DNA from: an uncultured Collinsella sp.
GTDB lineage: Bacteria; Actinomycetota; Coriobacteriia; Coriobacteriales; Coriobacteriaceae
Assembly (NCBI GenBank): GCA_934646865.1
Contig: CAKUEU010000004.1
Location: 1-56,775, forward strand
Length of the DNA stretch: 56,775 nt
Reading direction: 5' to 3'
Part shown: positions 44,258-55,427 of the stretch, in pieces
Position numbering within the stretch: the first letter of the stretch is position 1
How the letters are laid out: every line of letters starts with the position of its first letter
Notes under the pieces: model-generated
The model's database searches: none
Seen by the model: the letters and a program-made list of their open reading frames with translations, nothing else
Told to the model about the DNA's origin: nothing
Program-made: the position numbers and the translations under genes

Positions 44258-44462
44258 CAACGGAAACCCGGACTGCCCCATAGTTGACGCAGGCACGCGC
44301 CGCCGAAGGCCAGGCGCAAGGTTTTCGTAGATTCCGCACGAGCCGAAGAGCACTTAATGTGCTCTTCGTGCGAGCCAGGACTTGACCGAGCGAAAACCTT
44401 GCGCCTGGCCTTCGGCGGAGCGTGCCGGATGGTGGAATTGTGTGCAGCCCGGTTTTCCGTTG
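44258..44462. repeat. Nested hairpin element, copy A, upstream of rplJ
   Basis: A conserved 51-nt head (44332-44382, starting TTCCGCACGAGCC and ending GTGCGAGCCAGGACT) sits on 36-nt arms (44292-44327 with 44391-44426, one mismatch). A further 19-bp outer stem (44258-44276 with 44444-44462, two mismatches) lies beyond asymmetric internal loops. In the head, GAAGAGCAC/GTGCTCTTC closes on TTAAT, with a 5-nt GAGCC bulge above CGCAC/GTGCG. The head recurs at 55332-55382. Nothing codes for protein between 44198 and 44704. Confidence 0.88.
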
Positions 44463-44488
44463 ACTGACGCCGGGGTCCCCGCCATAAT
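44460..44488 (+). promoter_or_regulatory. Promoter of rplJ-rplL
   Basis: TTGACT (44460-44465), a 17-bp spacer and CATAAT (44483-44488). The -35 box overlaps the outer end of the nested hairpin element. A long (about 210 bp) leader follows. Confidence 0.65.
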
Positions 44489-44603
44489 ACTTTCGGTTCA
44501 CGCACGAATCCGCTGCCAGAGACAGCCGGCGCAAACGGGTCTTACCCGCGAGCTTAATGGGACATCCCGCCAGCCGAGGTGGTCGAGTAGATATGTCTTC
44601 TCG

Positions 44604-44639
44604 CCCCCGTCGCTCATGCAGCGCGGGGGCTTTCTTTTT
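44604..44639 (+). terminator. L10-leader attenuator
   Basis: CCCCCGTCGCT pairs with AGCGCGGGGG around CATGC, followed by CTTTCTTTTT, 65 bp before rplJ and inside its leader. This is the usual place for autogenous control by L10-L12; a kink-turn binding site was not modelled. Confidence 0.75.
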
Positions 44640-44704
44640 GGACATGCCCCCGTCACGTCCTTGTGGCGGACCGTGCCCGGAAAGAATTCGAGGAGGTGTA
44701 ATTC

Positions 44705-45226
44705 ATGCCCCAGCAGTACAAAATCGACAAGGTTGCAGAGATCGAGTCCCGTATCGCCGAGAACGCCGGTCTGTTCGTCGTCAACTACAACGGTCTGACG
44801 GTTAAGCAGGCTCAGGAGCTGCGTCATCAGCTTCGCGAGTGCGGCGCCGAGATGAAGGTCTACAAGAACAACCTGGTCAAGATCGCTCTCAAGAACCAGG
44901 AGCAGCCCGAGCTCGACGAGATCCTCGCCGGCCCCGTCGCTTATGTGTTCTACGAGACCGAGCCGGTCGAGGCCGCTAAGGCCCTTAAGGACTTCTCCGC
45001 TAAGTCCAAGGGCGTCCTTGAGATCAAGGGCGGTATCTCCGACGGCAAGGCCGTTTCCGCTGATGACGTTAAGGCTATCGCCGAGCTGCCCACCAAGGAC
45101 CAGCTTCTCGGCCAGATCGCCGGTCTCATCTCCGGTTTCGCTCGCGACATCGCTGTCTGCGTCAACGGCGTTTCCTCTGGTCTCGCTCGTTCGATCCAGC
45201 AGGTCTCCGAGCAGAAGGCAGCCTAG
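44705..45226 (+). CDS. rplJ: 50S ribosomal protein L10
   Basis: L10 anchors the L7/L12 stalk. The 173-residue protein has the RNA-binding domain (KIDKVAEIESRIAENAGLFV, VNYNGLTVKQAQELR and MKVYKNNLVKIAL) and the C-terminal helix that carries L12 dimers (LARSIQQVSEQK). CGAGGAGG precedes the ATG. It starts the rplJ-rplL unit, here separated from rplKA by about 21.7 kb. Confidence 0.97.
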   Translation: MPQQYKIDKVAEIESRIAENAGLFVVNYNGLTVKQAQELRHQLRECGAEMKVYKNNLVKIALKNQEQPELDEILAGPVAYVFYETEPVEAAKALKDFSAKSKGVLEIKGGISDGKAVSADDVKAIAELPTKDQLLGQIAGLISGFARDIAVCVNGVSSGLARSIQQVSEQKAA

Positions 45227-53700: not shown

Positions 53701-55194
53701 GCCGCCCAGTCCATCGGCGAGCCGGGTACGCAGCTTACGATGCGTACCATTCACTCCGGCGGCGTCGCTGGCGTCGACGATATTACGCAGGGTCTGCCTA
53801 CGGTCAGCCGTATGTTCGATATCGTCGGCAACGTCAACGAGAAGATTCTGGGTCGCGAGGCCGAGCTGGCTCCGTACTCCGGTCACCTCTCGATTAAGCC
53901 CGAGAAGTCCGAGTACGTGCTGACGCTCACCGACTCCGAGGATCACACCCGTGTCCTCGACGAGCGTCGCGTCCCCGCTTCGGTGCGCTTCATGCCCGAG
54001 ATCGAGGACGGCTGCGAGGTTCGCGCCGGCGACCAGATCACGAAGGGCTTCGTCAACTTCCGCAACCTGCGCAAGCTGACCGACATCGAGTCGACGATGC
54101 ACACCTTCGTCGAGAGCGTCAAGGACGTCTACACCAGCCAGGGCGTCGACCTGAACGACAAGCACATCGAGGTGCTCGCACGTCAGATGCTGCGTCGCGT
54201 TCAGATCACCAACCCCGGCGACTCCAAGTACCTGCTTGGTCAGTACGTCGACCGCTACGAGTTCGCCGACGAGGTCGAGCGCGTTGCCCGTCTGGGCGGT
54301 CAGGCTCCCGTGGCCGAGCCCGTCATCCTGGGTACGCTCAAGGTTGCGTCCAACATCGACTCCTGGCTGTCGAGCGCTTCGTTCATCCGTACCGCCGGCG
54401 TCCTTACCGAGGCTGCTATTGAGGGCAAGGTCGACCACCTGCTCGACCTTAAGTCCAACGTCATCGTCGGTAAGAAGATCCCGGCTGGTACCGGCCTCAA
54501 GCCGTACGCCAACGCCAAGCTGACGTATCGCACGGCCGACGGCTACGTGGACATCGACGGCCCGGCTTCGCCCAACGCCAAGTCGCTGCCCGAGTGGGCT
54601 CCTGTGGAGCTCAAGGACCTGGACGAGCAGCTCCCGCAACAGCTCGACTGGGCCGGCTACGACGAGTTCGGTGGTGCTGACGGTTCGTTCACCCGCAACG
54701 GCCACACCATCTCCGCCGAGAAGGCTCGTCTGTACCTGTTCGACGACCTGGGCGTGTCGCAGCGCTGGACCAACAAGTTCAGCGAGGTCGGCATCGAGAC
54801 GGTCGGCGACCTGGTCGGCAAGTCCGAGGAGGATCTGCTGCGCATTGATGGTATCGGTGCCAAGGCGATCGAGGAGCTCCGTGACGGCCTCGAGGCCCAC
54901 GACCTGCTCTACATCCTCGAGAACAACGACGACGTTGCCGACGAGGAAGACCTCTCGCAGCTGCTGCAGATGGTCTTTAGCCCCGACGGTCCGGACGACA
55001 TCCTGCTGGGCACCTCCGCCGCGCCGACGCATCACGCTGACGCCGATGAGGAGCTCCTGGGCGCCCCGATCGACGACAAGAAGGCTCCCGCCAACGGTGC
55101 CATCAACGAGGACATGGCTTCCCTCGACGAGCTGCTCAACCAGCTCGTGGACACCGACGACGCCGAAGAGGCAAAGGACAACGACGAGGAGTAA
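50716..55194 (+). CDS. rpoC: RNA polymerase subunit beta' with alpha-CTD-like C-terminal domain
   Basis: The beta' subunit has 1492 residues. GTG at 50716 is chosen because AAGGAG lies nine bases before it; a TTG at 50710 is closer than usual. The N-terminal zinc ribbon ([20 protein letters not shown]), the catalytic NADFDGDQM, the second zinc site ([13 protein letters not shown]) and the trigger loop are complete. After the conserved core ends (about 1310), a roughly 150-residue extension has a helix-hairpin-helix domain (1340-1410) matching the alpha-subunit CTD, with Arg1350, Asn1353, Gly1381, Lys1383 and Glu1387 at the UP-element-binding positions. A Asp/Glu-rich tail ends it. Confidence 0.97.
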
Positions 55195-55223
55195 CTTCCA
55201 AGTACGTTAACCGCCCTTCCAAA

Positions 55224-55258
55224 GACCCGCTTCCCAACAGGGGGAGCGGGTCTTTTTT
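55224..55258 (+). terminator. rpoC terminator
   Basis: GACCCGCT pairs with AGCGGGTC, with TTCCCAACAGGGGG between (a further CCC/GGG pair), followed by TTTTTT. Confidence 0.9.
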
Positions 55259-55288
55259 GTTGAAGAACGTTGCCCCGACGAGCACGTT

Positions 55289-55427
55289 GGATTCCCGGGC
55301 CGGGCGACACAGGGGTTAAGTTTGTCGCGAGTTCCGCACGAGCCGGAGGCCACTTAATGTGGCCTCCGTGCGAGCCAGGACTGTAGAGCAGCAAACTTAA
55401 CCCCTGTGCCGCCCGGCCCGGGAATCC
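55289..55427. repeat. Nested hairpin element, copy B, downstream of rpoC
   Basis: The same 51-nt head as copy A (55332-55382) sits on 36-nt arms (55289-55324 with 55392-55427, one A-C mismatch) whose sequence (starting GGATTCCCGGGCC) is unrelated to copy A. Head differences from copy A are six bases that form three swapped base pairs. The orientation is the same as in copy A. Confidence 0.88.

Follow-up and report, generated by a model that had tools for sequence, protein, structure and literature searches.

ERIC, BOX and MITE-type repeats are dispersed, hairpin-forming, non-coding sequences whose copies have ends that are alike. The Coriobacteriales hairpins described here are likewise dispersed, hairpin-forming and devoid of coding capacity, but their outer arms differ from locus to locus. 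Quasi-palindrome correction by template switching, in which one arm is recopied from the other, is a generic process; one allele studied here (L003) looks like such an event, but the process introduces no conserved head. The bcr1-bcr18 repeats of the Bacillus cereus group are dispersed intergenic repeats, several with conserved secondary structure, of which bcr1-bcr3 have been termed MITE-like, with about half of the copies transcribed (PMC3446304); bcr1 is also listed in PMC2267715. They resemble the Coriobacteriales hairpins in being dispersed, intergenic and structured, but belong to another phylum, and the accessible text of these sources makes no mention of locus-specific arms that resemble an inverted copy of the gene flank. 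REPs (20-40 bp) and BIMEs are palindromes in intergenic DNA that often occur in pairs, as described in the available part of PMC3733652. The hairpins studied here are also intergenic palindromes, often in pairs, but consist of arms around a longer head (14-45 bp and 48-52 nt, respectively) and show no link to RAYT; with regard to the REP-type GTAG/CGTC foot tag, some Collinsella copies read CGTAGATTCC beside the head. In Collinsella itself, the accessible description of the candidate structured RNA HMP2_254 (51 bp) places it directly upstream of L7/L12 (PMC8040213). Compared by that description only, HMP2_254 shares the genus and a similar length with our head, but the head lies upstream of rplJ and our model finds none between rplJ and rplL.

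In the window, by which we mean the whole 56,775-nt stretch of Collinsella DNA that was analyzed, two hairpins of the same orientation occupy gaps between called genes around rplJ, rplL, a galU-like gene, rpoB and rpoC. Pfam families around them include an aminotransferase, L10, L7/L12, a nucleotidyl transferase, the beta and beta' subunits and a sigma factor, and the nucleotidyl transferase gene of the rplJ-rpoBC block is presumably galU. All hairpin features lie on the forward strand. The conserved heads (44332-44382 and 55332-55382, with covariance-model matches of 83.6 and 84.5 bits) are 51 nt each and identical at 45 positions, and a base-by-base check confirmed that the six differences amount to three pair replacements only, two from A-T to G-C (44346/44366 and 44349/44363) and one from G-C to C-G (44350/44362). 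In each copy the head is enclosed by 36-nt arms with one mismatch (44292-44327 pairing with 44391-44426, and 55289-55324 with 55392-55427), and the arm sequences of the two copies are unrelated. Copy 1 extends beyond the arms described earlier through an outer stem of 19 nt with two mismatches (44258-44276 pairing with 44444-44462), which is present in the MFE fold; the last 3 nt of its 3' strand are the start of the TTGACT -35-like hexamer (44460-44465) that, together with CATAAT (44483-44488), forms a putative rplJ promoter by consensus reading. The end of the 3' arm of copy 2 has, by eye, an alternative pairing with GGGGATTCC before TTTTT (55445-55458), which makes an alternative terminator-like hairpin possible. 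Folding energies of both regions are far below those of shuffled sequences (z -11.7 for copy 1 and -10.9 for copy 2; 0 of 200 shuffles folded as well). As a separate observation, residues 1345-1395 of RpoC (50710-55194) match the RNA polymerase alpha C-terminal domain family (E 1.3e-8), which seems unusual for RpoC.

The original observation holds, and its scope proves wider than stated, as the two hairpins belong to a multi-copy family. A contig scan with an exact pattern yielded 30 stretches, 27 from Collinsella, two from Slackia and one from a Coriobacteriaceae MAG, and a first covariance model, built from nine heads, had matches in 126 of 396 Coriobacteriia genomes and in 31 of 153 genera. 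In a sample of the phylum, 23 of 396 genomes matched, 22 of which were among the 35 order members listed; the sole match outside the order was partial and marginal (positions 7-38, E 7.6e-4). With at most 15 candidates scored per genome in these two scans, the copy counts obtained from them are lower bounds. When up to 150 candidates were scored, the complete Collinsella-genus genome G141 revealed 31 copies below E 1e-5 (59 matches in all, opposite-strand echoes included), and G075, from another family than Collinsella, revealed 21 matches at E 1e-4 or better. The family is confined to Coriobacteriales as far as found here. Phage carriage was rejected, since viral contigs gave 0 exact matches to the two patterns used, which cover two common head forms. 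The window search found no Rfam family at the curated cut-off except tRNAs, and at E up to 10 sub-threshold matches only, mostly to microRNA hairpin models. No description was found in the literature on Coriobacteriia/Coriobacteriales, Collinsella and Eggerthella repeats, where subscription papers could still hold one, or in the general literature on such repeats and inverted duplication. The view that no described family accounts for the hairpins therefore holds, and they apparently constitute a family of dispersed DNA elements of gut bacteria that has not been described before.

The covariation anticipated in the original prediction is evident in the covariance-model alignment, in which the apical stem varies jointly at eight of nine pairs and is paired in 99.7% of cells over 104 aligned matches (85 distinct). 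For the whole head structure, which spans 48-52 nt across elements, 233 double-change cells were counted versus 75.5 in shuffles and at most 48 in slid versions. Such compensatory base-pair changes are the criterion for structured RNA, and a hairpin of single-stranded DNA would satisfy the same criterion. The core, of type TTCCGCA...CAGGACT, is nearly invariant over the 85 distinct rows, which come from several families. The GCAC/GTGC helix with its GAGCC bulge, as described earlier, is seen in the window, but it is perhaps not the right core, as 17 of 84 rows disrupt one of its pairs. An alternative core, with a single unpaired base, consists of C-G (U-A in three rows), G.A, A.G, G-C, C-G and C-G. 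It counts 10 double-change pairs versus 8 for the GCAC/GTGC core, in an alignment that was fitted to the latter structure, but three of its pairs are disrupted, in 4, 4 and 8 of the 84 rows. Pairing overall is near equal for the two readings (98.7% vs 98.6%), and in some Collinsella variants an ordinary helix is possible, by eye, at the place of the core. We tentatively prefer the tandem G.A core. A lone apical hairpin without core or arms (L075:1643-1665), identical to the apical hairpin of some heads, was observed between two complete elements.

For the arms, 377 elements were reduced to 127 distinct ones by dropping those with an arm score below 26 or with a near-identical 5' arm. Of these 127, 43 have perfect arms. 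In a separate comparison, the median arm score is 70, versus 16 for arms exchanged between loci. The fixed arm length of 36 nt proposed from the window is excluded, with arms ranging from 14 to 45 bp (median 27). Paired arm changes were found at all four orthologous loci examined: between the alleles of each locus, 12 of 29 arm pairs change jointly at leuS, 14 of 27 at polA, 16 of 28 at rplJ and 12 of 38 at rpoC, and 93.5-98.9% of cells are paired. The notion of a free arm sequence requires some restriction: the outer arms are locus-specific, but copies within a genome have a stretch of the inner arm in common, and the outer portion looks like gene-side DNA copied in inverted orientation. Among copy-to-copy alignments over 85 bp in G141, most span 86-165 bp and cover the head and inner arms, and a weaker one reaches 221 bp at 71%. 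Terminal inverted repeats common to the copies were not found, the shared part being the head and inner arm.

Comparison of the two flanks revealed where the outer arms may come from. In 23 of 125 elements (two of the 127 were left out because of incomplete flanks), the 3' flank recurs once more, inverted, in the 5' flank outside the arms, at a level exceeding the 99% control level, whereas direct copies number 2. Exact inverted matches of at least 10 nt beyond the arms occur in 21 of 127 elements, versus 1.6% in swapped flanks, and exact direct matches in 4 of 127, versus 1.1%. The inverted copies are placed symmetrically (mean difference 7.9 nt versus 19.8 nt when shuffled), with one outlier, L137. 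Thus, the gene-side 3' flank is, as these statistics show, partly repeated in inverted form on the 5' side. Coding sequence makes up most of the 3' copy in 13 of the 23 elements but most of the 5' copy in none of them, so that, wherever the two can be distinguished, the native copy is the one next to the gene and the duplicate is the one on the 5' side. Allele L003 carries, where the head would be, an inverted copy of the sequence flanking it. The 23 elements include three rplJ and two polA alleles. Against a fold-back reading, the 3' copy is not mostly coding in 10 of the 23, and 102 of the 125 elements, the leuS elements among these, are without an outer inverted copy above the threshold, which fits either decay or a different origin. 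A fold-back origin of the arms is supported statistically, with no clean event seen.

With gene calls based on a home-made hexamer score, 34 of 96 classified elements are antisense to both neighbors, 29 are sense to both, 26 lie between converging genes and seven between diverging genes. A gene usually adjoins the 3' side of the element directly, and in 55 of 60 cases the stop codon of the opposing gene lies at most 69 nt from the end of the 3' arm or overlaps it; distances to genes 5' of the element vary widely. The (-,+) order holds for all 30 close pairs, which include many alleles and come from about eight loci. Translation of the element was rejected on a chosen subset, in which most copies are not read in frame. 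In L131 the element is in frame with the end of a called gene and reads through it, which would lengthen the encoded protein. At loci outside Collinsella, such as L183, L188 and L193, both sides of elements are enriched in the motif CGCAGGT in the same orientation (9 of 97 per side), with TGA or CGA frequently following it.

Presence at the same locus differs between Collinsella species. Upstream of leuS the head was found in 20 of 30 Collinsella loci, where the element is preceded by a promoter-like motif and followed by the ribosome-binding site, and was absent in 10, six of which have, by eye, a TTTGCTAGAAT-type motif. At polA the head is present in 16 of 30 loci, the other 14 comprising three short alleles, one contig ending in a G run and ten more distant sequences, and at rplJ it is present, whole or cut, in 22 of 30, with one interior deletion (L102) and seven loci without a head. 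The polA allele L219 has one arm from each of two classes, as if recombination had occurred inside the head. In G141, the duplicate pair L085/L094 is alike over 234 bp (87.6%), and nested copies, with one element in the head of another, were found in L149, L196 and L376. Signs of target-site duplication are weak: the mean direct-match score was 5.74 versus 5.37 (sd 0.13) in shuffled controls, and a score of at least 8 was reached in 4 of 62 cases versus 3.15 expected.

A further line of evidence comes from imperfect arm pairs. Over the 127 distinct elements, read on the head strand with an equal penalty on G.U and A.C, the arms contain 3279 Watson-Crick, 91 G.U, 18 A.C and 42 other pairs (p 6e-13). 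G.U exceeds A.C in every orientation class having such pairs (26:5 for ++, 19:6 for --, 16:3 for +- and 5:0 for -+), and the ratio is 18:4 inside called ORFs and 7:0 in unclassified elements. Because a G.U on one strand is an A.C on the other, it is the fold of the head strand that matters, and this strand seems to act as a folded single strand. The bias does not separate RNA from single-stranded DNA, and it depends on arm delimitation, with 29 G.U versus 7 A.C under strict delimitation (60 elements) and 77 versus 51 under a looser one (68 elements); the apical stem has 5 G.U versus 4 A.C. The strand-specific bias makes the RNA-or-DNA question directly testable.

Taken together, the family is real: it is structured and multi-copy, its arms evolve by paired changes, and its fold is strand-specific. 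For its origin, the reading that we favor, at about an even chance, is that a mobile head inserts beside genes and that gene-side DNA is duplicated in inverted form around it, with pairing maintained afterwards. The head would spread by copying into a site beside a gene, and fold-back synthesis would copy the gene-side flank, such that the outer arms become an inverted duplication of host DNA. Arm pairing may then be kept because the head strand functions in folded, single-stranded form, more likely as RNA than as single-stranded DNA and probably with a protein bound to it; alternatively or additionally, fold-back correction might recopy one arm from the other. The core of the original proposal, a structured element that is either a mobile palindrome or an RNA with a recognized head, is retained in light of the copies, the covariation, the lack of an Rfam match, the signs of dispersal and the strand-specific fold; among the outcomes once set against that proposal, arm length does vary, whereas copies are not limited to two and covariation is present. 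Several results count against the favored reading, including the dependence of the wobble bias on arm delimitation, the lack of a clean target-site duplication, and the short polA allele (three of 30) and rplJ allele L102, which can be read as deletions. In addition, promoters are not enriched 5' of the element (plus 9.24 versus minus 9.72 over 30 elements; 8.85 versus 9.03 over 96), which argues against a dedicated 5' promoter and leaves an RNA of the element's own unproven. A retroposon-like variant, which we consider rather improbable, posits that a hairpin RNA containing the head serves as the template for DNA synthesis at a nick next to a gene and that the new strand snaps back and copies the gene end, which would leave the head plus an inverted duplication; if true, it would jointly account for the wobble bias, the tight gene-side 3' junction, the longer and variable 5' side and the host-sequence arms.

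It is also conceivable, if on balance unlikely, that the element is a host regulatory RNA, serving as a small RNA, leader or 3' UTR in which the head is the binding site of a single protein or ligand, with duplicated copies kept for regulation. The strand-specific wobble bias, strong covariation, conserved core and location of the leuS element agree with this, but the mixed orientation to neighbors, the many and unrelated neighbor genes, the unenriched promoters and the varying presence at the same locus do not. Near-perfect Watson-Crick arms, the inverted copies of gene ends, L003 and the chimera L219 could instead reflect replication errors only, if template switching forms and perfects the repeats and the head is spread by ectopic copying with no selected function; a strand-blind process predicts equal G.U and A.C, contrary to the 91 versus 18 observed, and the nearly invariant core also speaks against this quite doubtful account. 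Sites just past the stop codons of opposing genes and the potential hairpin before TTTTT in copy 2 would suit bidirectional terminators or mRNA-end stabilizers, but this is highly improbable given the conserved head, the head-strand bias, the separate terminator-like hairpins that visual inspection shows 5' of several copies and the absence of a T tract after the stem (T 15-21% after the 3' arm, A 21-35% before the 5' arm, across classes). Arms as captured terminators were likewise rejected, as the T tract is absent and, with respect to the opposing gene, the wobble bias falls on the wrong strand. Least probable of all are REP elements mobilized by a RAYT (Y1) transposase: the copies are high-copy intergenic palindromes and the close pairs share an inverted order, but no recognizable head lies within about 1.5 kb of the Y1_Tnp loci fetched (30 out of 40 matches), and no Y1_Tnp match was obtained in G075 (21 copies) or G133 (9 copies), which weakens the RAYT link. 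No mobilizing enzyme was found.

If the favored reading of a mobile head is right, these hairpins represent a dispersed element with arms built from the DNA of the neighboring gene and kept paired by repeated two-sided changes, and they would document, densely and in nature, how fold-back copying has acted on bacterial chromosomes. They would also point to a head-binding protein, recognizing RNA or single-stranded DNA, in gut bacteria such as Collinsella and Slackia.

Other long palindromes without this head were observed in the rplJ region (L121) and the polA region (L223 and L228). They have a TGGGGACG-type stretch in common, occupy the same intergenic places in other Collinsella and probably constitute another palindromic repeat family. 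Finally, the contig of L214 breaks off within the 5' arm in a long run of G, and contigs C49, C56, C57 and C114 of the draft genome G001 end or start at the head; these hairpins seem to break assemblies.
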